Shown here piece after piece: positions 49,181 through 61,024 of a stretch of 64,000 nucleotides of DNA. Both the position numbers and the translations under genes were made by a program. Source of the stretch: Aerococcus kribbianus (GTDB taxonomy: Bacteria > Bacillota > Bacilli > Lactobacillales > Aerococcaceae); contig NZ_JAPRFR010000001.1 in the NCBI RefSeq assembly GCF_026805545.1, positions 434,001-498,000 on the forward strand, in the 5' to 3' direction. The notes below the pieces were generated by a model that saw nothing but the letters and a program-made list of their open reading frames with translations, had not been told where the DNA came from and made no database searches. The first letter of the stretch is position 1, and every line of letters starts with the position of its first letter.

Positions 49181-51874
49181 ATGACTTTTAAATCCTTGTG
49201 TCAATCCTTTTGGAAACATCATCCCTTAGCTTGCCTTTTGCTGATAGCTTTTTTCTTGCCAATTATTTTAATGGCAGGGCTTTTTATTGCTATGGGAGTT
49301 TATCCTTTTGGCGACAACACACTTTTTACCGTTGACTTAGGCCAACAATACATCGATTTCTACCAATATTATCGCCAAGAATTTTTCCAAGGTTTTCCCC
49401 AATTCTTTTATTCTTTTGAAAAAGGGATAGGTGGAGAAATGTTAGGTACTTGGGCTTATTACTTATCAAGTCCATTTTTATTGGTTCTCCTCTTATTTCC
49501 ACAATCGTTAATGTCTCTAGCTGTAGCCCTGATTATCTTACTCAAACTAGGCACAGCTAGTGCCAGTTTTCAATACTTATTGAGTAAAAAATATGGCGAT
49601 CGAGGAATTAAATCACTGACCTTTTCCTTAGCCTACGCCTTTATTGGCTACTTATCAGCCAACCAACTCAATATTATGTGGTTAGATGGCGTAATCTTCT
49701 TGCCTCTTGTCTTATGGGGAATAGAGAAATTATTTAAAAAGGGGAGTCTAGGGACCTATGCTTTCAGTTTAGCTCTTATTCTAGTCACAAATTATTATAT
49801 TGGCTATATGATCTGCTTATTTGTTGTCTTATTTTTTATTTACCGGTTAATAAGTGCAGATTTCTGGACTTTGAAAAAAACATGGCGTGGTAAAGCTAGA
49901 ATTGCTAGTAAATTGATTGGTCACTTTACCTTGGCTTCTCTACTGGCTGGTGGCTTAGCAGCCTTTTCCTTACTCCCTACCTACCATTCTTTAATGGCTT
50001 CCAAAGGCGCCTACCAAGCAGATGCCTTGGATTGGTCCTTTGCCTATCCTATTACAGATATCTTATCTAAGTTTGTCATCGGCCCTTTTAACTTTGACCA
50101 GATGCCTGAGGGTTTACCAAATATTTTCGTTGGTTCACTTGCTCTAATCTTATTTTTGGCTTACTTCACCAATCGGCATTTCCCAATTCGTGAACGACTG
50201 GCTGCCTTTGCCTTGAGTCTTATTCTCATTTTATCCATGAATAACCAAGCTCTGAATACGATTTGGCATGGTTGGCAAAATCCCATTTGGTATCCCTATC
50301 GCTTTTCTTTTGTTTTTTCAGCCTTTATATTATACATCGGTTATCGTCACTACCGGTCCATAAGCCACTTTTCCTTAAAAGCTGCAATCATTTCCTTGAG
50401 CTTGATCGCTCTCTCTGTGATTTATCTCTTTCATAATATGAACGATATGACCTATCTGAGTCCCCGGACAATTTGGTTGACTTTCACCTTGATGATTTTA
50501 ATTTTGCTGGCATTGTTAGTGATGGAAGATTACCCAAAGTACAGTATCATTTTTCTGCTGATTTTAAGCCTAGGCGAAGGCTTCACTAATTCTGCCTTGA
50601 CCTTAACAAGTTTAGCTTATCTAAAAGCCGATGATGTAGCAGTACCCATTGAACTTAGTCAAGGAGTGATAGACCAGTATAAACCTAAAAATAATAACTT
50701 TTACCGTATGGCCAAAACCTTCCAACGCACCAAAAATGATAGCCTACAACTCTCTTATTATGGATTAAACCAATTTAATTCAACTCTAGAGGTAAACACT
50801 AGCCAGCTATTTAAGGCTTTAGGTCAACCTTCTAGCGAAGTCTTTATTAATTATGGTACTGGTACCCTAATTACTGATGCTCTATTCGACATTCGTTACT
50901 ATCATCGCATGTCACCAGGATTGAATTTAGAGAACCGACCCAAGACTTATACCTATCGTCCAGATTTACGTAACTACCCTATCCAAAGTAATAACGGCCA
51001 AATTATTAGTCATGAAAATCCCAATGCTTTGGGTTTAGGCTTTGTCGCTAATGCTGATATTAAAGAGATTGATAGTCAGGATGTCTATCCTATTTACTTG
51101 CAAGATGATATTCTCAAGAGTTTGGATCAGCAGCAAAGAGCTGATAACGACCAGAAAATCACTCAGTATTTTCAGTTAGAAAACTTCCAAGGCATTGATT
51201 TAGTCAATGTCAGTAAAGATGAAGGTAATGGTGTCAGCGGGACCTATCGGCGTATTGATCCTGACCAAGAGGCCTATATTAATTTAGAAATGACGATTCC
51301 TGATGACCGTTCTTATTATCTGACCCTTCCAGGTTATCTCAATGAAAATGAGGTAAGTTTTTATCTCAACGGTCAAGAATTTCCATACGATAGCAGTTTC
51401 CGGTCTACCCAAATTTATAACTTAGCGAGTCAAAATCAAAATAAAAATATCGTCTTTCAAATCAAATTATTAACCGATGAAGTTCACCTACAAGACACTA
51501 ATCTTTATTCATTAGATCCCAAAAAAGTCAGTAACTTGATGCAATCCGTTCAAAGTTTAGCTTTAGAACACTTTGATAATAATTCTTTTTCCGGAACCGT
51601 CACATCGCTAACCGACAAGCAAAAGCTGGTCCTCAGCTTTCCTTATTCAGAGGGTTGGCATTTTACTGTAAATGATCAAAAGGTAACCGCTCAACCTATC
51701 TTAGAAGGAGGAATGACAGCAATTGATTTAGATCAAGCTGGCACTTATAGGGTCAGTGCCTACTACCTGCCTCCCGGTCTCATTACTGGCATCGGTATTT
51801 CTTTAGCCTCCCTGCTACTCTATGGGTTAGTCATTCACCCAAAAGGAAAAACTTGGACTAAAAGGATGAGATGA
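49181..51874 (+). CDS. YfhO-family multispanning membrane protein
   Basis: A large membrane protein of 897 residues. The N-terminal two thirds has about 12-14 helices in a GT-C-like arrangement: FTVDLGQQYIDFYQYYRQEF near residue 48, with its acidic/polar first loop, and NQLNIMWLDGVIFLPLVLWG near 160. The C-terminal third is an extracellular domain (about 490-860) with a last helix at 870-890. YfhO of Bacillus and Listeria relatives are linked to glycosylation of lipoteichoic or wall teichoic acids, so an envelope glycosyltransferase is likely; sugar and target are unknown. The ATG at 49181 follows AAGGACG. Confidence 0.85.
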   Translation: MTFKSLCQSFWKHHPLACLLLIAFFLPIILMAGLFIAMGVYPFGDNTLFTVDLGQQYIDFYQYYRQEFFQGFPQFFYSFEKGIGGEMLGTWAYYLSSPFLLVLLLFPQSLMSLAVALIILLKLGTASASFQYLLSKKYGDRGIKSLTFSLAYAFIGYLSANQLNIMWLDGVIFLPLVLWGIEKLFKKGSLGTYAFSLALILVTNYYIGYMICLFVVLFFIYRLISADFWTLKKTWRGKARIASKLIGHFTLASLLAGGLAAFSLLPTYHSLMASKGAYQADALDWSFAYPITDILSKFVIGPFNFDQMPEGLPNIFVGSLALILFLAYFTNRHFPIRERLAAFALSLILILSMNNQALNTIWHGWQNPIWYPYRFSFVFSAFILYIGYRHYRSISHFSLKAAIISLSLIALSVIYLFHNMNDMTYLSPRTIWLTFTLMILILLALLVMEDYPKYSIIFLLILSLGEGFTNSALTLTSLAYLKADDVAVPIELSQGVIDQYKPKNNNFYRMAKTFQRTKNDSLQLSYYGLNQFNSTLEVNTSQLFKALGQPSSEVFINYGTGTLITDALFDIRYYHRMSPGLNLENRPKTYTYRPDLRNYPIQSNNGQIISHENPNALGLGFVANADIKEIDSQDVYPIYLQDDILKSLDQQQRADNDQKITQYFQLENFQGIDLVNVSKDEGNGVSGTYRRIDPDQEAYINLEMTIPDDRSYYLTLPGYLNENEVSFYLNGQEFPYDSSFRSTQIYNLASQNQNKNIVFQIKLLTDEVHLQDTNLYSLDPKKVSNLMQSVQSLALEHFDNNSFSGTVTSLTDKQKLVLSFPYSEGWHFTVNDQKVTAQPILEGGMTAIDLDQAGTYRVSAYYLPPGLITGIGISLASLLLYGLVIHPKGKTWTKRMR

Positions 51875-52058: not shown

Positions 52059-53255
52059 TTACGCTTCTCCTAATAAATCAAAACTTACTGTTAAGAAAGC
52101 AGCCACACCTAAGTAGAAATATTTTTCTTCCATATCGAATTTTTCATGGTGGTGACCATTGAAGATACCATCGATTTCACGCGGATTGTTCAAGAATAGG
52201 AAGGTGCCAGGAACTTCTTGTAGATAGTAGGCAAAATCTTCTCCACCCATGCGTGGTTCCAAGCTTTCGTATAGTTGATCTGATGAGAAGACCTTAGCTA
52301 AAGCATCGACTACTCGCTGAGTAAAATCAGAATCATTAATCACAGCTGGATATTTATAATCGTAAGTCACTTCGGCATCAGCACCCATGGCTTGAGCGAT
52401 ATTTTTAGCCATAGTTTCTAATTCTTGGTGAACAAATTTCCGTTGGTCATCGTTAAAGGTCCGAACGGTTCCTTCTAATTCTACTTTATCAGGGATAATA
52501 TTTTGGTTATACCCACCAGACACTCGAGTGATAGATACAACGACTGGTTCAGTGGCCTTAATCATACGACTCTTAATCATTTGGATACCGTTAATCATTA
52601 AACCAGCTGTCGCAATAGGGTCATGGGCAGTTTCAGGATATGCACCATGAGACCCCTTACCTAAAATATCAATTTGGAAGCGATCCATTGAGGCCATAAA
52701 ATTTTCAGCTTTATAAGCAATAACGCCTTGAGGTGCCATTGGATCTAAGGAACCCGCATGAAGACCAATAACATGGTCTACATCAGGATTTTTAAACGCT
52801 CCCTCGTCTAACATAGGTTTGGCACCACCAGGGTATTCTTCCCCCGGTTGGAAAATCAGCTTAATGCTACCATGCAGTTGGTTTTTCATGTTTTGAAGTA
52901 GTTTCGCAGTTCCTAAAAGGATAGCAGTGTGGCCATCATGTCCACATGCATGCATATTGCCATTCGTTGAAGCAAAGTCTAGGCCAGTATTTTCAGCAAT
53001 TGGCAAGCCATCCATATCGGCACGAATAGCTAAGACTGGTCCTGGATGACCACCTTCGATCAAACCGACAATAGCATTGCCATTAACTAAGGTATGGTAA
53101 GGAATACCCAATTCATCTAAAACTTTTTGTACATAGGCAGAAGTTTGCGGAATTTCCAACCCTAGTTCTGGGAATTGGTGAAGATCACGCCGCCAGCTGA
53201 CCATATCATCTGCTACAGATTGTGCTAAAGCCATAATATCTACTTGTCCCATCAT
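52059..53255 (-). CDS. M20-family amidohydrolase (N-acyl amino acid hydrolase type)
   Basis: Metal-dependent amidohydrolase of 398 residues of the HipO/IAA-amino acid hydrolase branch. Ligands lie in IRADMDGLPI, NMHACGHDGHTAIL and IFQPGEEYPGGAKPML; the dimerisation domain starts near residue 185 (GKGSHGAYPETAHDP) and the final ligand is in GHHHEKFD. It probably removes an acyl group from an amino acid or dipeptide; DapE-like acetyl-diaminopimelate deacetylation is an alternative. It follows two co-directional membrane proteins, which may import or export its substrate. The ATG at 53255 has GAGGG just upstream. Confidence 0.9.
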   Translation of the reverse strand: MMGQVDIMALAQSVADDMVSWRRDLHQFPELGLEIPQTSAYVQKVLDELGIPYHTLVNGNAIVGLIEGGHPGPVLAIRADMDGLPIAENTGLDFASTNGNMHACGHDGHTAILLGTAKLLQNMKNQLHGSIKLIFQPGEEYPGGAKPMLDEGAFKNPDVDHVIGLHAGSLDPMAPQGVIAYKAENFMASMDRFQIDILGKGSHGAYPETAHDPIATAGLMINGIQMIKSRMIKATEPVVVSITRVSGGYNQNIIPDKVELEGTVRTFNDDQRKFVHQELETMAKNIAQAMGADAEVTYDYKYPAVINDSDFTQRVVDALAKVFSSDQLYESLEPRMGGEDFAYYLQEVPGTFLFLNNPREIDGIFNGHHHEKFDMEEKYFYLGVAAFLTVSFDLLGEA

Positions 53256-53289
53256 AGTCCCTCTTTTCTACATTCCATAAGTAACCAAT

Positions 53290-53751
53290 TTACATAAATC
53301 GTGCCATTAATTCAGCAATTCCTCCTGATACTAGGAAAGTTCCCACAATAACTAAAAGAGAAACCACTAAACCACGCCAGCCCACCTTAGCAAAATCACG
53401 CCAGTCGCGGCCCACAACCACCCCTGCATATGCCAATACCGGAGTTGATAAGGCTGACAGGGAAATCTTATTCACCGAATCAATGACAAAATCTGAAACA
53501 GGCGAAAATGGTAAGGCTAACAAGAGCCCAATAACTGACACATAAATAACGGTTGGCATTTTAAAGGGCAAATCCTCAGATAATAGTAAACTCAGTAAAG
53601 CAATAATACCTAAAATAATCATGCCCGGAATCGATTCAATCATGCCAGCTGTCCCACTAATCCGATTACCAACAAGAGCAATTGCAATGACTATAATTAG
53701 TGCTAAACACCAATCTTGAATCTGAGCTGAAAGCTTTTTATTTGCTGACAT
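53290..53751 (-). CDS. Small membrane protein, partner of the upstream DUF3100-like protein
   Basis: A 153-residue protein with four or five membrane helices, for example LALIIVIAIALVGNRISGTA and SLLLSEDLPFKMPTVIYVSV. The ATG at 53751 is eight bases behind AAGGAGG and overlaps the end of the upstream membrane protein gene by 14 bp, so the two products probably form one complex. An M20 amidohydrolase gene follows after 34 bp. No function is known to me for this protein. A two-part transporter for an acylated amino acid is a guess from context. Confidence 0.72.
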   Translation of the reverse strand: MSANKKLSAQIQDWCLALIIVIAIALVGNRISGTAGMIESIPGMIILGIIALLSLLLSEDLPFKMPTVIYVSVIGLLLALPFSPVSDFVIDSVNKISLSALSTPVLAYAGVVVGRDWRDFAKVGWRGLVVSLLVIVGTFLVSGGIAELMARFM

Positions 53752-54544
53752 GCTCGTCACCTCCTTGACGTCCTTTACCGGCTAAACGCATCATCCATTC
53801 CCCAATTGGCAAGGCAATGAAGATTGATAGATAAACAGAAATAGCGGACGAAATCACATTGGAAATACTAGCAAAGGCGGAAATTGTAGCATAATCGGCG
53901 TCAGGAACAGCCTCTTGGATAGCACCCAGACCGGCTGTCATCATGGAAGCTGATCCTGCTCCTACTGCCATAGCAGCCGACTCTGGTGAAAAGATACCTA
54001 AATCAATAAAAATAGGGGGTAAGAAAGACATCAAAATGGTTCCAAACAAAGTCCCCACAATATAACATGTCATGACCCCTTTGAATTCCATGGAACTAGG
54101 CCCATAGACATCTGAAATCAAAGCCACATTAGCTTCTCGGCCTAAGGAGTGAGTCATTCCAATAGCTTCCCGACCTAAGCCCAAAAGTAAAGCAATAGGT
54201 AAGGCTACCAAAAGGGTCCCCACATTCCCTAAGTTTTGTAATAAAAGTACCGGACCAGCGGAAATTACTGCGTCAATTGACTCACCACTAGCAACACCCA
54301 GTTTAGCTAATAACAAAAGTACCCCAATCGAAAGCATTTGCGAGGCCCCTTCTGCTTGTTTTTCTCCTAACCATTTAAAAGATTTAAATAAATAGGCAAT
54401 AATTGTAAAAATCATTGCAAATAACATTGGTAAAATAGCAACAGCCACTTGTCCTATTTGGATTGTCTTAGCTCCAATGAGTTCAGCAAGTAAACAAGCC
54501 AAAAAGACAGACAAGTGCAGTCGATAATCCCGCCATAGTTTCAT
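53738..54544 (-). CDS. DUF3100-like membrane protein
   Basis: A 268-residue protein with about eight membrane helices, starting MKLWRDYRLHLSVFLACLLA. The ATG at 54544 follows GGAGGAATTAGG; the longer frame from 54613 has no ribosome site. Two glycine-rich segments (GMTHSLGREANVALISDVYG and AMAVGAGSASMMTAGLGAIQ) look like pore or substrate-binding re-entrant loops. Overall appearance and position before an M20 peptidase gene recall the DUF3100 family, from memory rather than from a search. It probably works with the next membrane protein. Confidence 0.72.
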   Translation of the reverse strand: MKLWRDYRLHLSVFLACLLAELIGAKTIQIGQVAVAILPMLFAMIFTIIAYLFKSFKWLGEKQAEGASQMLSIGVLLLLAKLGVASGESIDAVISAGPVLLLQNLGNVGTLLVALPIALLLGLGREAIGMTHSLGREANVALISDVYGPSSMEFKGVMTCYIVGTLFGTILMSFLPPIFIDLGIFSPESAAMAVGAGSASMMTAGLGAIQEAVPDADYATISAFASISNVISSAISVYLSIFIALPIGEWMMRLAGKGRQGGDEHVSK

Positions 54545-54719: not shown

Positions 54720-55724
54720 TTAGAATACCTGTGCCAACAAGCTTACTGCCTCTTTACGGGCATCAATTCCTGGCATCAAAGGAATCAACAAGAGTTCATC
54801 TGCTTGGGTCTCATCAGCAATAGCATACATTTCATTAGCTACGGACTTAGCTCCACCCACTAACATCCGACTCCGGTTCTTAGCAATCTGCTCACGATCT
54901 TGGTCAGAATAATCATAGGTTTGGGCTGTTTCTAGAGAAGGAAAGGCAGAAAACTCAGCAAAATTATCCTTGCCTAGTAACCATAAATCCAAAACTTGAC
55001 CATAAGCCTGAGCTAACTCTTCGTCATCAGCCACTGCGACAAAAGGCGCCACAGACACATAAGGCTTATCTAGAAAAGCTGAGGCTTGGAATTCTTCTCG
55101 GTAAACCCGGCAAGCTTCCTTAGCTACCTGGCGTTTATTGGCTGATGCATAAGGAAAAAGCCCAAAGGTATAAGCCATCCCTAGGCGAGCTGCCATGCGA
55201 GCGGACCGGACACTAGAAGATAAGGCCCACATAAGTGGTAGACTTTTGCTCGCAGGATTCGCCTTAGCTTGAGGCTGTTCAATAGATCCTACTGCTTGAT
55301 CGAGTAGGTAAGCTTGTAGGGTTTGGATACTTTCTTCATAATCGAAGTCTGCTTTGCCCTTAGTCTCCATGGCTTTGCGCACTGCTAGGGTACCTGCTGT
55401 ATTACCTAGGCCTAAGTCTATGCGATCAGGATGAAAGGCTAACATCATCTTAAAGTTTTCTGCAACCTTCATAGGAGCATAATGCGGTAACATAACGCCT
55501 CCTGAACCAATACGAATATTTTGCGTTTGGTTGAGTAATTGGGTCATGAAAACCTCTGGACTAGAAGAAGAAAAGGCTGGCACATCATGGTGTTCAGCCA
55601 CCCAAAAACGTTGGTAGCCTAATTGGTCACAAAGTTGAGCCAGTTCAACACTATGGGCTAAAGCAGTTTCTGGGCTTTCCCCTTCATCACGTTGACCATA
55701 GTCTAATATCCCTAATTTAACCAT
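54720..55724 (-). CDS. LLM-class flavin-dependent oxidoreductase
   Basis: Luciferase-like monooxygenase or reductase of 334 residues using FMN. It starts MVKLGILDYGQRDEGES, with FWVAEHHDVPAFSSSSPEV near residue 40 and RIGSGGVMLPHYAPMKVAEN near 72, both standard for the bacterial luciferase-like (MsnO8-like) group. The ATG at 55724 follows GAAGGAGA and overlaps the lplA stop by 8 bp. Such a gene is a recurrent last member of SirTM/macrodomain operons in Staphylococcus and Streptococcus, where redox defence is the proposed context. Its substrate is unknown. Confidence 0.9.
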   Translation of the reverse strand: MVKLGILDYGQRDEGESPETALAHSVELAQLCDQLGYQRFWVAEHHDVPAFSSSSPEVFMTQLLNQTQNIRIGSGGVMLPHYAPMKVAENFKMMLAFHPDRIDLGLGNTAGTLAVRKAMETKGKADFDYEESIQTLQAYLLDQAVGSIEQPQAKANPASKSLPLMWALSSSVRSARMAARLGMAYTFGLFPYASANKRQVAKEACRVYREEFQASAFLDKPYVSVAPFVAVADDEELAQAYGQVLDLWLLGKDNFAEFSAFPSLETAQTYDYSDQDREQIAKNRSRMLVGGAKSVANEMYAIADETQADELLLIPLMPGIDARKEAVSLLAQVF

Positions 55725-56778
55725 TATTATCGTCTCCTTCATCAGGAATTTCTAATATAAAAGCGACAAATGCTTCATTGTCCATATTAGAAATATAGTC
55801 ATTGACATTATAAGGAGCAAGAGCCTCTGCAATGGCTGACTTATCCAAGGCAACTCCCAATAATGCTTCTTCTAATTTATGGACATCTTCAATACCGAAG
55901 AAATCACCCCGAATTTCTATCGCTTGAATATAGGCTTTATGAATATTTAAGCCAACATGCAAGGTACCCACACCAGAAAAACGCTGGTCAACCTGGTACT
56001 CGAAATCGCGGAAACGTCCATAATTCCAATCCCAATTATTGAAGCGCTCTGCCGCAATTTGGTCAATAGTTTGCCAGTCTTCAGGAGTAAAAATATAGCG
56101 TTTAGCTTGGTCTAAATGATCGACTTCTAACAATTCCTTGAGAATCAAATCAGAAAACTCTTCCACTGTAATGTCTTGATATTCTGGAGCTAGAGCATCA
56201 CGTAAGGTACCCACTCGTGCACGAACAGATTGAACACCATGGGAAGCAATTTTTTTCTGGTTGGGATTAAGCGCCTTTTCCATTACCTCATAATTAGGAT
56301 CGAGAAGTAGTGAAAAACCAGCATAAACCCGACCTTTAACCACACTCATAGCAGCTCCAGAAATTTTATGGCCATTAAGAGTGAGGTCGTTACGCCCTTC
56401 TTGAGTTAAGCCATCAACACCCAACTTTTCCAAAACTTTTATTATTGGTTGGTAGAGTTTTCCATAATTGCCGTATATATCGGTTTGTGACGCATTATTA
56501 AATAAGAAACAATAAGACATATTACGATCATCCAAATACAAGGCGCCACCACCAGTTTCTCGGCGCACCAAGCCAATATTATGGGCATCCATATAGGGTT
56601 GGTTGACCTCTTCGTAAGCATTTTGGTTTAAGCCAATTTGTATGGACGGATTCACCATATAAGGAAAAATAATATCATCATCTAAAAATAAAGTATCACG
56701 GACATAGGCTTGAATCGCCATCGAAGTCCCTTGATCGTAAACCCATTGGCCATCACGTATTGGTTCAATTAAATACAT
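55717..56778 (-). CDS. lplA: Lipoate--protein ligase
   Basis: Attaches lipoate (or octanoate) to lipoyl domains via lipoyl-AMP. The 353 residues contain the large catalytic domain with NPSIQIGLNQNAYEEVN, the lipoate-binding loop RRETGGGALYLDD near residue 73, and the lysine region NDLTLNGHKISGAA near 134. A smaller C-terminal accessory domain follows (about 250-340). Because it sits in the SirTM operon it is expected to act on the GcvH-L protein encoded upstream, as LplA2 does in S. aureus. The ATG at 56778 has AAAGAG upstream. Confidence 0.94.
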   Translation of the reverse strand: MYLIEPIRDGQWVYDQGTSMAIQAYVRDTLFLDDDIIFPYMVNPSIQIGLNQNAYEEVNQPYMDAHNIGLVRRETGGGALYLDDRNMSYCFLFNNASQTDIYGNYGKLYQPIIKVLEKLGVDGLTQEGRNDLTLNGHKISGAAMSVVKGRVYAGFSLLLDPNYEVMEKALNPNQKKIASHGVQSVRARVGTLRDALAPEYQDITVEEFSDLILKELLEVDHLDQAKRYIFTPEDWQTIDQIAAERFNNWDWNYGRFRDFEYQVDQRFSGVGTLHVGLNIHKAYIQAIEIRGDFFGIEDVHKLEEALLGVALDKSAIAEALAPYNVNDYISNMDNEAFVAFILEIPDEGDDNNG

Positions 56779-56799
56779 TTTTATCGCTCTTTTCTATCA

Positions 56800-57672
56800 T
56801 TAGACTATCGCATGCAAACATTGAGCAATATCATCAGTCAGCCGTAATGACTGGTCTTGAATATCGCTAGCAATTCGATAAGGTTTCTGATTCATAGTGA
56901 TATACAGGGCATTGGGATTTTCTGCGGTCCATTTTTGGAAAGGATGACGAATAAATTGTGGGGTCGTCATTCCCACACCTATTTCTAAGTATAAGATTTT
57001 CTTACCCGCATTTTCTTTTAAGAAGACTTGGTAACGATCGTTTTGATCATGCCAATCCTTATCTTCAACCATACCTTTTTGAGCATCACGTTTATTGATT
57101 TCGAAAACAGCGCCACAGTGTGGACAATGCGGAACGAGCTCAGCAGGGATACGCATATTTTCTTGTTGAGCAACCATTTTCCGAATCAAATCTTCATCTT
57201 GATAAGTTTCTTGATGGCACATGGCTGAACATTGCCACAAGCCGTACTCCCCTTGAATACGAAAAACCTTGTCCATATCAAAATCAGCCGCATAAAAGGC
57301 ATTATCTGCGTTGGTCGTTATCACATGATAGTTTTTGTCTGCTAAAATTTCTTTTAAGTCCACATAGGCTTGCCCTTGTGGCTGGTCAAAATAATTTAAG
57401 AGAGAAAAACGCGACTGAAAAGCCCAATATTCTTGAGCATCCTCAAAGTCAGCGAGGAAAGCTTGCAACATATCATAAAAATTATATTTTTCAATAAAAT
57501 CAGGAAAGGCATTCTTAAAGCGCGGACCCACATAGGTAAAGCCTGTTGCGGCTGACATTCCAGCCCCCACACCTACTACGATAGCTTCAGCTTCGGCGAT
57601 GGCTTTGGCTAATTGTTGGCTTTGAGACTCTGCATTTTGATTCAATACCATCCATGGCTTACTTTCTTGCAT
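56800..57672 (-). CDS. SirTM-class sirtuin, protein ADP-ribosyltransferase
   Basis: NAD-dependent class M sirtuin of 290 residues, expected to mono-ADP-ribosylate lipoylated GcvH-L. The NAD-binding start reads [19 protein letters not shown]. The segment that is TQNID in deacylases reads TTNADNAF here. The catalytic HG of deacylases is replaced by QG (Gln140 in FRIQGEYG), as in known SirTMs. The zinc cysteines are in WQCSAMC and PHCPHCG. These changes argue for ADP-ribosylation rather than deacylation. The ATG at 57672 follows AGAAGGAG. The macrodomain gene ends 15 bp upstream and lplA starts 22 bp downstream. Confidence 0.93.
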
Positions 57673-57686
57673 TCTCTAAACTCCTT

Positions 57687-58484
57687 CTATTGTTCCAATA
57701 AGTCTTGATAGATTTCCAGGTCCTTATCCAAGAAAACATTGAAAATAACTTTCAGTGAACTATTATTTTCATTTAGATACGTTTTGACCGTTTCAATGGC
57801 AACCTGGGCAGCTTGATCGTTAGGATAATGAAATTCACCAGTTGAAATACAACAAAAAGCCAGTGATTCCAAACCTTCTTGGTCAGCTAACTGTAAACAA
57901 GACCGATAAGAAGAGGCGAGTAAGTTTTCCTTAAGCGGGGAAACGCCACCCTCATCAATATAAGGACCTACTGTATGTAGGACATATTGAGCAGGTAAAT
58001 TATAGGCTGGTGTTATTTTAGCCTTACCCATCGCTTCTTTGCGTCCTTGATTCTTAATGATCTGATGACAATCCAAACGCAATTGCATACCAGCTCGCGT
58101 ATGGATAGCATTATCAATACAATTATGATTGGCTTGGGTACAACCTAGTAAGGCAGAATTAGCCGCATTAACAATTCCATCCACTGCTAGACAAGTGATA
58201 TCTCCTTGCCAGAGATAGATTTGTTCTTGAATCGCTGTCAAATCGTCTAGGGAAACAATGTCTCGTTTGCTTAAAAGCGCTTGGAGGAGCTCATCTTGTA
58301 AACTTAAAATGTGGTTAGGAACGGCTTGAGGTGGGCGAATATTACAATAGCCACGGAAAATTTCATACTTATCTTCCCAAGTTTCATTCGGATAGCGGGA
58401 AAAATGTGATTCTACTTTAGGGTTTTCGCTGGCCAAATAGGCTATCAGCTGGTTCAATTTATCTGACAATTCTTGGTCAGTCAT
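57687..58484 (-). CDS. Zinc-dependent macrodomain ADP-ribosylglycohydrolase
   Basis: Expected to remove ADP-ribose from GcvH-L, opposing SirTM. The 265-residue protein has an N-terminal extension (about 1-85) and a macrodomain starting LWQGDITCLAVDGIVNAANS near residue 91. It carries the zinc-type insertion GCTQANHNCIDNAIH with Cys115, His120 and Cys122 as probable ligands, then YVLHTVGPYIDEGG and CISTGEFHYPNDQAAQVA. The ATG at 58484 lies behind GGGAGG; the longer frame from 58550 runs over two hairpins and has no ribosome site. It is the second gene of the operon, after gcvH-L. Confidence 0.93.
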   Translation of the reverse strand: MTDQELSDKLNQLIAYLASENPKVESHFSRYPNETWEDKYEIFRGYCNIRPPQAVPNHILSLQDELLQALLSKRDIVSLDDLTAIQEQIYLWQGDITCLAVDGIVNAANSALLGCTQANHNCIDNAIHTRAGMQLRLDCHQIIKNQGRKEAMGKAKITPAYNLPAQYVLHTVGPYIDEGGVSPLKENLLASSYRSCLQLADQEGLESLAFCCISTGEFHYPNDQAAQVAIETVKTYLNENNSSLKVIFNVFLDKDLEIYQDLLEQ

Positions 58485-58519
58485 GCTAGTCCTCCCTCTC
58501 TTAATCTCATCGACAATAC

Positions 58520-58576
58520 GAATTGAGACTGGAAAAACTTCCAGTCTCAATCCGAAATATTCCTATCCAAATAGGA
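58520..58576 (-). other. Two hairpins between gcvH-L and the macrodomain gene
   Basis: TTGAGACTGGAA pairs with TTCCAGTCTCAA, and GAGTATTCCTAT partly with ATAGGAATATT. Neither is followed by a T-run on the minus strand. They may be a weak attenuator or an mRNA-stabilising element that sets GcvH-L levels above those of the downstream enzymes. Confidence 0.5.
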
Positions 58577-58591
58577 ATACTCAGTCACATA

Positions 58592-58924
58592 TTAAGCTTC
58601 TTCTAAAGCAGAAAATTCTTCTGGATCCACATCTGTTAATTTTACCAACCAGTTTTCTTCTGCCTTGGCAGAATTTAATAAACTTGGCTCTGATACAGCC
58701 GCTTCATTTTTAGCCACAACTGTACCAGTTAAAGGACTTTGGATTTCCATAACTGTTTTAGAAGCTTCTAAGCTAGCTAAGGCATCATCTTTGTTAACAT
58801 GGTCCACTTCCATGAATTCTAAGAAACCAACTGTACCAATATCGTCTTGTAATTCAGGGGTCATTGCTACAGTGTACTCGTCGCCATTTTGGCTAACAAA
58901 TAAAAAGTTTCCACGTTTAGTCAT
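58592..58924 (-). CDS. GcvH-like lipoyl carrier protein (GcvH-L)
   Basis: Lipoyl-domain protein of 110 residues, shorter than the glycine-cleavage H protein. The lipoylated lysine is Lys56 in LEASKTVMEI. Asp27-Asp28 in MTPELQDDIGTVGFLEFM sit in the region reported to be ADP-ribosylated in homologous systems (from memory). No other glycine-cleavage genes (gcvP, gcvT) are nearby, so a stand-alone signalling or redox carrier is more likely than glycine breakdown. The ATG at 58924 follows AGGAGG, and the promoter upstream overlaps a perfect palindrome. Confidence 0.92.
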   Translation of the reverse strand: MTKRGNFLFVSQNGDEYTVAMTPELQDDIGTVGFLEFMEVDHVNKDDALASLEASKTVMEIQSPLTGTVVAKNEAAVSEPSLLNSAKAEENWLVKLTDVDPEEFSALEEA

Positions 58925-58978
58925 CTAAAATTCCTCCTATTTAATTGCGTCTGATTTGCTCTTTTTATTCTAACAGAT

Positions 58979-59007
58979 ATTATAGTAAATTACTACTGTA
59001 TCAGTAA
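58979..59007 (-). promoter_or_regulatory. Promoter of the gcvH-L/SirTM operon
   Basis: TTACTG, a 17-bp spacer and a perfect TATAAT on the minus strand, about 50 bp before the gcvH-L start. Confidence 0.7.
58994..59006. promoter_or_regulatory. Palindromic operator candidate TACTGTATCAGTA
   Basis: Perfect 5-3-5 inverted repeat TACTG-TAT-CAGTA overlapping the -35 of the operon promoter and lying in the 167-bp region shared with the divergent flavin oxidoreductase gene. A repressor bound here could control both directions. Confidence 0.5.
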
Positions 59008-59091
59008 CCAACAAAATGTGTTATAGTGAAAGAGATTAATTTAAACTATTGTAAATTGTCTTTAACTCGATACATATAGATAGGAGCGCTT

Positions 59092-60306
59092 ATGACAACA
59101 AAAAAATACCAAAGTTTATTCCAGCCAATTTCTCTTCCAAACGGCATTGAACTTGCTAACCGTTTTACCTTAAACCCTTTGACAACTAACGCCTCATCAC
59201 GAGAAGGCTATGTCACTGAAGAAGAAACGCGCTATGCTGAACGCCGTAGCCAATCTGCACCCTTACAAGTGACAACTGCTGCCTATATTGAAGACTATGC
59301 CCAATTGTTTGAGTTCGGTCCTAGTGTCCGCGATGATTCCTTTATCTATGGCTTGTCTAAATTAGCCCAAGCCATGAAAAAAGACGGTGCCAAGGCGATT
59401 CTGCAACTTACCCATGCTGGACGTTTTGCTAAAATTGCCTTAAAAGATTATGGCGTGGTATACGGACCTAGTCCTATGCACCTCAACACTCCTGTCGAAC
59501 ACGATGTCCTAGCTATGTCCAAACGAAAAATTGACCATGTTATTGAACAATACGCCCAAGCAACCCGCCGTGCAATCGAAGCCGGATTTGATGGGGTGGA
59601 GATTTCTAATGCACAACGCTTATTACCTCAACAATTCTTCTCCCCATTCTCTAACCAACGTGACGATGAATACGGTAGCCAATCCCTTGAAAACCGGGCC
59701 CGTTTCGGTGTTGAAATAATGGCTGCTGTGCAAAAAGTAATCAATGAATCAGACAAGAAAGACTTTATTCTTGGTTTCCGGGGTACCCCAGAAGAAACCC
59801 GTGGCTCTGATGTAGGCTATACCGTTGAAGAATTCAATCAGTATTTCGATTGGATGATGGAAGTTTCTAATATCCAATACTATGCCATCGCTTCATGGGG
59901 CCACGATATTTACAAAGAAAAAGCTCGCGCTGGACAAGGTAAAGGTGAATATGTCAATAAATTAGTCCACGATCACATTGCTGGTCGTGTCCCTGTCATC
60001 GCAACTGGTGGAATCAATAGTCCTGACAAGGCTTTAGAAGCGCTAGAAAACGCCGACATGGTTGGAATGTCTTCTATATTCGTCACTGAGCCAGACTTTG
60101 TTTCTAAACTCGAAGCTGGACAAGAAGAAACTATCGATCTCTCAGTCGACCTTGAAACCCTAGACGACCTGGCCATCCCGCAACGCGCCTTCAAAGACCT
60201 CGTCGAATTTATGGACTTCGGAGGCTCCCTTCCCCAAGAAAGCCGCGACGAACTTCGCCGCCTCGCCCAACAAGACACCAGCTCCTACTTCAAAGAATTT
60301 AAATGA
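59092..60306 (+). CDS. NAD(P)H-dependent flavin oxidoreductase, old yellow enzyme family
   Basis: FMN-containing TIM-barrel reductase of 404 residues. Family parts include FTLNPLTTNAS near residue 26, AKAILQLTHAGRFAK near 98, DGVEISNAQRLLPQQFFSPF near 162, and VIATGGINSPDKALEAL near 302. The usual H-G-A-H-G-Y-L motif after DGVEI reads SNAQRLL, so substrate binding must differ from classical OYEs. It is divergent from gcvH-L and shares its regulatory region. OYE-like genes accompany SirTM operons elsewhere, which supports one functional unit. The ATG at 59092 follows AGGAGCG. Confidence 0.9.
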   Translation: MTTKKYQSLFQPISLPNGIELANRFTLNPLTTNASSREGYVTEEETRYAERRSQSAPLQVTTAAYIEDYAQLFEFGPSVRDDSFIYGLSKLAQAMKKDGAKAILQLTHAGRFAKIALKDYGVVYGPSPMHLNTPVEHDVLAMSKRKIDHVIEQYAQATRRAIEAGFDGVEISNAQRLLPQQFFSPFSNQRDDEYGSQSLENRARFGVEIMAAVQKVINESDKKDFILGFRGTPEETRGSDVGYTVEEFNQYFDWMMEVSNIQYYAIASWGHDIYKEKARAGQGKGEYVNKLVHDHIAGRVPVIATGGINSPDKALEALENADMVGMSSIFVTEPDFVSKLEAGQEETIDLSVDLETLDDLAIPQRAFKDLVEFMDFGGSLPQESRDELRRLAQQDTSSYFKEFK

Positions 60307-60422: not shown

Positions 60423-61024
60423 TTATTTAGCCGCTTGATAAAATTCGGCAATCTTGTCCCAGTTTACCACATCCCAAATTGCTTTAAGATAGTCTGGGCG
60501 AACGTTACGATAAGTTAAGTAATAAGCATGTTCCCAAACATCCACTCCAAAGATAGGTGTTGCACCATCCATCAAAGGATTGTCTTGGTTTGGCGTTGAA
60601 GTCAATTCCAATTCACCATCACGAACCGACAACCAGGCCCATCCTGAGCCAAATTGTCCCGCCGCTTGCGCTTGGAAATCTTCTTTGAATTGGTCTAGCT
60701 ACCAAATTTAGCTTCAATAGCAGCCAATAAATCACCACTAGGTTCAGTTTTTTCTGGACTTAAGATTTCCCAGAAGAGCGAATGGTTGTAATGGCCACCT
60801 ACATTATTACGGACTGGTGTTTGTAAGTCAGTTGGTAAGTTGTTGAAGTCTTTTAGTAAGTCTTCGGCACTTCTATCAGCGTATTCAGTACCTTCTAGAG
60901 CTTTATTCGCATTAGTGACATAAGTATTGTGGTGCTTATCATGGTGTAGGGTCATTGTTTCCTTGTCAATTGTTGGTTCTAAGGCATCGTATGCATATGG
61001 CAAATCAGGTAATGTAAAAGTCAT
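60423..61024 (-). pseudogene. sodA: Superoxide dismutase (Mn/Fe), split by a one-base deletion
   Basis: The first frame (61024 to 60695) starts [19 protein letters not shown], holds the ligands His27 ([10 protein letters not shown]) and the second His (GHYNHSLFW), and ends AKFGS at TAG. The second frame resumes at GAC (60695) with DQFKEDF, then GSGWAWL and the ligands in [10 protein letters not shown], and ends at 60423. Between AGC (60698-60700) and GAC only two bases (TA) remain where homologues have one leucine codon, so one base is missing. Both halves are otherwise fully conserved. This is either a very recent loss or a sequencing error. The ribosome site AAGGAGG is intact. Confidence 0.93.

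Follow-up and report, generated by a model that had tools for sequence, protein, structure and literature searches.

The stretch of the Aerococcus kribbianus genome analysed here (64,000 nucleotides of contig NZ_JAPRFR010000001.1, positions 434,001 to 498,000; hereafter the window) carries at its positions 54720-60306 genes for the lipoyl carrier protein GcvH-L, a zinc macrodomain, the sirtuin SirTM, a lipoate ligase and two flavin oxidoreductases. The original prediction, made from the DNA letters, had described these as one SirTM operon, and all six genes were found at the places and on the strands that it gave. The features of the locus are as follows.

58592-58924, minus strand: gcvH-L, with lipoyl site K56, putative ADP-ribose site D27, and E24; assigned from family and PDB matches.
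57687-58484, minus strand: zinc macrodomain, predicted protein-ADP-ribose hydrolase, 265 residues, with zinc loop C115, H120 and C122, and D124/H128.
56800-57672, minus strand: SirTM, class M sirtuin and predicted ADP-ribosyltransferase, 290 residues, with N121, Q140, R195 and GVGMTTP at 232.
55717-56778, minus strand: LplA2-type lipoate-protein ligase, 353 residues, above the TIGR00545 cut-off.
54720-55724, minus strand: LLM flavin oxidoreductase (MsnO8 family), 334 residues from an internal ATG, above the TIGR03558 cut-off.
59092-60306, plus strand: divergent old-yellow-enzyme (OYE) oxidoreductase, 404 residues, matching PDB 3l5a (E 2e-148).
58485-58591, minus strand: spacer of 107 nucleotides (nt) between gcvH-L and the macrodomain gene, with two tandem stem-loops predicted by folding.
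58925-59091, no strand assigned: divergent intergenic region between the OYE gene and gcvH-L, presumed to hold promoters.

The genes from the macrodomain to LLM are closely packed, with gaps of 14 nt (macrodomain/SirTM) and 21 nt (SirTM/lplA2) and an 8-nt overlap (lplA2/LLM), and here the predicted spacing was correct to within one base. The 107 nt after gcvH-L had been omitted, so the argument that tight spacing makes the locus one machine holds only from the macrodomain to LLM, gcvH-L being set apart by the hairpin spacer. The divergent gap between OYE and gcvH-L is 167 nt, and a longer start of the LLM gene is possible at 55742. The reading frames of the operon are open throughout. Pfam and NCBIfam families agree for five of the six genes, the exception being SirTM, which fell under every curated cut-off in both collections.

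SirTM has PDB 5a3a as its best solved relative (E 2.7e-126), and GcvH-L matches PDB 5a35 (E 4e-38); in line with the account that Rack 2015 gives of its structure, we take both entries to be Streptococcus pyogenes proteins. The macrodomain matches the solved zinc macrodomains 5kiv (1.2e-83) and 8rsl (1.5e-83). It contains the zinc residues C115/H120/C122 named in the original prediction, together with NAAN at 106 and Asp124-x3-His128, giving both the Cx4HxC zinc loop and the Dx3H motif. The Pfam Macro match begins only at residue 105 of 265, indicating an N-terminal extension. NAAN and the C/H/C zinc ligands are aligned in all 33 separate macrodomains, six of which (L061, L062, L065, L066, L067 and L069) have Gln at the position of the His of Dx3H. 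LplA2 matches lipoate ligases and scored 333 bits against TIGR00545 (cut-off 280).

The window SirTM bears the signature of class M sirtuins: QG in place of the catalytic HG, as had been noted from Gln140 (Q140-G), along with N121, R195 and GVGMTTP (pattern GVGx[NT]TP). N121, Q140 and R195 are kept in 38/38 aligned SirTMs, and mutation of the matching residues N118, Q137 and R192 greatly lowered activity (Rack 2015, PMC4518038). GcvH-L has the Lys56 and Asp27 named earlier, as well as E24 and E36. All 34 operon GcvH-Ls keep E24, D27 and K56, and modification of GcvH-L was abolished by D27A and nearly abolished by E24A (Rack 2015, PMC4518038). These matches support the assignment of the window SirTM as a predicted lipoylation-dependent ADP-ribosyltransferase.

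The locus is what Rack 2015 (PMC4518038) and Ariza 2024 (PMC11490716) describe as the extended SirTM operon. The claim of a complete operon with two flavin oxidoreductases was thus right about the gene set, but it holds no novelty, because the composition, both oxidoreductases and the OYE on the opposite strand are already described (PMC4518038, PMC11490716, PMC5049849, PMC11257911, PMC9152700). A literature search on Aerococcus and sirtuin gave no report of a SirTM operon in Aerococcus among the matches listed. The set is ordinary in kind; what goes beyond Rack 2015 and Ariza 2024 is modest and consists of the hairpin spacer and the variants found in relatives.

By homology to the described systems, the operon very probably combines lipoylation by LplA2, an ADP-ribose cycle of SirTM and the macrodomain, and a redox carrier role with OYE and LLM. 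LplA2 would attach lipoate to Lys56 of GcvH-L, SirTM would transfer a single ADP-ribose from NAD+ to Asp27 of the lipoylated GcvH-L, and the zinc macrodomain would take the ADP-ribose off again. Lipoyl-GcvH-L may then act as a redox carrier with OYE, and probably LLM, against oxidative or electrophilic stress, with the ADP-ribose keeping it off until needed. In vitro, lipoylation, ADP-ribosylation, its reversal and the binding of OYE to lipoylated GcvH-L have been shown for the Staphylococcus aureus and S. pyogenes proteins (PMC4518038, PMC11490716); the off-switch and the stress role of GcvH-L are proposals in the same papers. For A. kribbianus, each step of this mechanism, and any role of LLM, is suggested by homology. 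The reading of the original prediction, a lipoylation-dependent and reversible ADP-ribosylation, finds support in homology, in the catalytic residues and in the linkage of the genes in relatives.

Several points weigh against this interpretation. OYE is absent from 9/44 fetched loci, LLM from 6/44 and both from 4/44, so the set of redox partners varies. Tyr7 of GcvH-L is listed among the conserved interface residues by Ariza 2024 (PMC11490716), but residue 7 is Phe in 17 of the 34 operon copies, including that of the window; Tyr7 is not a defining residue in the first GcvH-L description. The transcription unit could be interrupted at the 107-nt hairpin spacer. Finally, the neighbouring sodA gene is frameshifted, which means that sequence errors in the assembly are possible.

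The extended operon of S. aureus (SAUSA300_0322-0328; sav0322-0327) contains the same six genes, OYE again being divergent, as seen in record L119, whose assignment to S. aureus is by inference, and the S. aureus zinc macrodomain (5kiv/8rsl) is the closest solved relative of the window macrodomain. The order in L119 is LLM-gcvH-L-macrodomain-SirTM-lplA2, whereas LLM comes last in the window, and the L119 macrodomain gene starts right after the gcvH-L stop, where the window has 107 nt and two hairpins. A glycine cleavage system is present in S. aureus (Rack 2015, PMC4518038), whereas the window genome has no GcvP match. The extended operon of S. pyogenes encodes the same enzymes as the window, and that species is likewise described as lacking the glycine cleavage system; however, it has only the SirTM-type GcvH (Rack 2015, PMC4518038), whereas the window genome has a second GcvH too. 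The minimal SirTM/zinc-macrodomain pair and the fungal Mfs1 fusion comprise the same two kinds of enzyme without GcvH-L or LplA2, and the macrodomains of this type that were assayed had no action on GcvH-L (Ariza 2024, PMC11490716).

In the window genome (1.58 Mb, 99.6% complete), neither GcvP nor the lipoyl synthase LipA had a match, which argues against a place for GcvH-L in a glycine cleavage system. The genome also encodes two 2-oxoacid dehydrogenase E2 proteins, a second lipoate ligase (LplA1), a LipL-like protein of the type that transfers octanoyl or lipoyl groups from GcvH to E2, which scored below the curated cut-offs (191.8 against 400 and 143.2 against 450 bits), and a second GcvH. 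The latter, 98 residues from the chosen ATG, is below the gcvH equivalog cut-off, and its gene adjoins one read, without a search, as FtsW/RodA. It is likely that this organism scavenges lipoate and uses the second GcvH as the relay, with GcvH-L as a separate carrier. With neither GcvP nor LipA matched, and with both another GcvH and a transferase resembling LipL encoded, GcvH-L appears to serve as a dedicated carrier. A small genome that has the full operon but no GcvP or LipA match makes the role of GcvH-L easier to study than in S. aureus.

The same inventory could be read differently: GcvH-L might store lipoate, or relay it, for delivery to the 2-oxoacid dehydrogenases by way of the LipL-like amidotransferase, with SirTM and the macrodomain gating the flow and any redox role secondary. 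The lack of a LipA match and the presence of two E2s, LplA1 and the LipL/octanoyl-transferase-like protein are consistent with this idea, which has been raised for S. aureus (PMC5049849). However, the second GcvH could already serve as the relay, the LipL-like protein is below both of its curated cut-offs, and the usual neighbours are OYE or LLM (at least one of them in 40/44 loci), although no systematic look for E2 or LipL neighbours was made. We consider this alternative unlikely. Control of all lipoylation by SirTM, through modification of the second GcvH as well, is much less probable still. In the window genome that protein does have E and D aligned at positions 24 and 27, but the Glu is not kept in the second GcvH (not beside GcvP) of the five other SirTM-bearing members of the genus that were examined (three have Y, one Q and one A), and SirTMs are described as strictly selective for GcvH-L (Rack 2015, PMC4518038).

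SIR2-family proteins above cut-off were found in 14/15 genus genomes (16 matches). A tree built from 14 of these matches and 13 of the 38 SirTMs, with deacylases taken from the genus only, separated the two groups with support 100/100, Q standing against H in the catalytic column; the grouping with deacylases that the original prediction had named as its refutation did not appear. That this sirtuin works as a standard deacylase, or as a delipoylase that strips GcvH-L, is hardly credible: its only NCBIfam matches are to deacylases, three models whose cut-offs it misses by a wide margin (30.3 bits at best, where 243 are required), but it has Q for the catalytic H, its clade is separate from the 14 genus SIR2 proteins, all of which have HG, and two SirTM members had no deacylase or delipoylase activity (Rack 2015, PMC4518038).

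Counting the window's own genome, relatives of SirTM are present in 13/15 genomes of the genus and 32/76 of the family, in 71/395 sampled genomes of the order, where many weaker matches at about 22-37% identity may lie outside class M, and in 27/398 sampled genomes of the phylum. The presence of SirTM is patchy. gcvH-L accompanies SirTM in 34 loci of the initial fetched set, the window included, and both occur in 13/15 genus genomes. Among 44 loci with gcvH-L and SirTM, the macrodomain is present in 44, lplA2 in 34, LLM in 38, OYE in 35 and at least one of OYE and LLM in 40. The window order, with a divergent OYE and LLM last, occurs in 6/44 (the window, L003, L040, L043, L044, and L042 with a fused macrodomain) and, without an OYE in the stretch, in 2/44 (L041, L107). 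LLM precedes gcvH-L, as in L119, in 25/44, and the remaining 11/44 have other orders or no LLM. In trees that carry a long-branch warning, the window pairs with genome G009 of the same genus for SirTM (97/87), the macrodomain (99/93) and OYE (97/86). The pairing is weaker in the smaller SirTM/SIR2 tree (85/61), and the small GcvH-L tree left it unresolved.

The stretch from gcvH-L to lplA has been described as containing only coding nucleotides, with some overlaps, in a descriptive rather than defining statement (Ariza 2024, Fig. 1 legend, PMC11490716). The window differs in the 107 nt between gcvH-L and the macrodomain gene. This spacer folds into two tandem hairpins (58582-58555 and 58554-58519) at -37.2 kcal/mol, with a z score of -5.0 and 0/200 shuffles as good, and a U-tract behind them is absent. 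The gcvH-L/macrodomain junction measures at least 30 nt in 23/44 loci and less than 30 nt in 21/44. Among the 23 long spacers, 19 have z < -2, those failing being L044, L067, L069 and L108; at the LLM/gcvH-L junction, only 1/12 spacers of 30-300 nt has z < -2. Such a gcvH-L/macrodomain spacer is found in 10/13 genus loci and in 0/7 loci of family f4 (L099-L105), in all seven of which the two genes overlap. Three closely related genomes with a gcvH-L/macrodomain gap of 3-4 nt have a spacer between the macrodomain and SirTM genes instead, with z < -2 in 2/3. The sequence of the spacer varies between most lineages, and its position is constant.

To place these values, gcvH-L/macrodomain spacers were compared with other same-strand spacers of 45-200 nt: 16/19 were structured as against 37/94 (Fisher p 3.7e-4), a p value in which kinship was corrected only by dropping near-duplicates and in which hairpin arms are shared within L040-L042 and within L045-L047. 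Before this comparison, the near-duplicates L046, L047 and L051 and one spacer shorter than 45 nt (L108) were removed, as were nine control loci that were near-duplicates. A script placed the gene starts, and the controls, approximated from long ATG open reading frames, include terminators between operons. A U-tract end, called by script, was found in 8 of the 19 spacers compared (one being L044, which fails z < -2) and in 6 of the 37 structured controls.

Dose control, with many carriers and few enzymes, is the plainest reading of the spacer, though unproven. We tentatively suggest that in Aerococcus and its kin the stem-loop after gcvH-L sets two doses, giving the carrier in excess of the writers and erasers of the mark. 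If this is true, only part of the lipoyl carrier can bear ADP-ribose. In some relatives, the U-tract after the stem-loop may act like a leaky terminator. Since the window spacer lacks a U-tract, a terminator cannot be the general answer, and a role in transcript stability or processing fits better there than termination.

A terminator scan found 13 candidates against 7.7 expected, none of them in the gcvH-L/macrodomain spacer, and the three Rfam matches, which were sub-threshold, lie outside the operon. The spacer as a dispersed repeat was rejected, as its only other match in its own genome is its own inverted arm. The promoter scan gave 25 candidates against 23.6 expected. A shared [AG]ATACAG operator, picked by eye in the divergent promoter, was also dropped, because across 24 upstream regions, shuffled in two-base pieces, no 6-9-mer recurred above the shuffled level; no conserved motif was found in the OYE/gcvH-L intergenic region.

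Variants among the relatives offer natural experiments: SirTM fused to its eraser, SirTMs without an adjoining eraser, and an operon without gcvH-L. In genome G024 (L042, 7403-9124), the macrodomain and SirTM are encoded as a single 573-residue protein within an extended operon; the linker between them contains no Met. Such fusions are described in fungi, with separate genes in bacteria (Rack 2015, PMC4518038). No open frame above 500 residues was found among the other SirTM matches listed for the family, order and phylum, and the fusion may be an assembly error. A second SirTM occurs in genomes G001, G002, G003 and G012 (SirTM-like genes at L070 7083-7946, L071 7617-9585, L072 525-2493 and L074 7073-7981), the fetched 9-16 kb around it containing neither a macrodomain gene nor gcvH-L; in G002 and G003 (L071, L072) it is followed by lplA. 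These second SirTMs have GCGYMAP for GVGxTTP, keep the Q and form a separate clade (100/100, with a warning of long branches). Genome G204 (L098, 4505-4840) has the divergent OYE, macrodomain, SirTM, lplA2 and LLM in the window order without gcvH-L, and no gcvH-L remnant turned up when the 12-kb locus was read in all six frames. In genome G022 (L065, 5248-6278), lplA2 lies in two separate open frames. Loci L115, L116 and L117 (family f9, same order) each carry a head-to-tail pair of adjoining SirTM-like genes that are only distantly related to class M.

SirTM relatives were present in 25/72,556 plasmid records and 2/50,697 phage records. Plasmids do carry distant relatives of SirTM, 12 of the 25 records being typed as mobilizable and one as conjugative. 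The best plasmid match, a record of 592 kb labelled as an Aerococcus tenax 'plasmid', shares 94.7% identity over 7.3 kb with the locus of the same-genus genome G010, which lies on a 1.97-Mb contig, and a further 5.7 kb of G010 matches the same record at 93.8% identity. The better phage match, L119 (OR849908.1), is labelled a Staphylococcus phage but is an unverified 5.5-kb contig with what is taken to be the S. aureus SirTM operon; we read it as bacterial contamination. The two plasmid and phage records inspected gave no sign of movement of the six-gene set, and no further search was aimed at mobility.

Around the operon, sodA (window 60423-61024, minus strand) adjoins the OYE gene, and its frameshift brings an early stop. 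The gene is intact at the same place in G009 (L040), and the break in the window copy is either real or an assembly error. Downstream of LLM (window 52059-54544, minus strand) lie genes for a DUF3100 membrane protein, a 156-residue protein and an M20 amidohydrolase. In L040, LLM adjoins instead an 897-residue gene resembling the window gene at 49181-51874, which suggests insertion or loss of the DUF3100/156-residue/M20 block.

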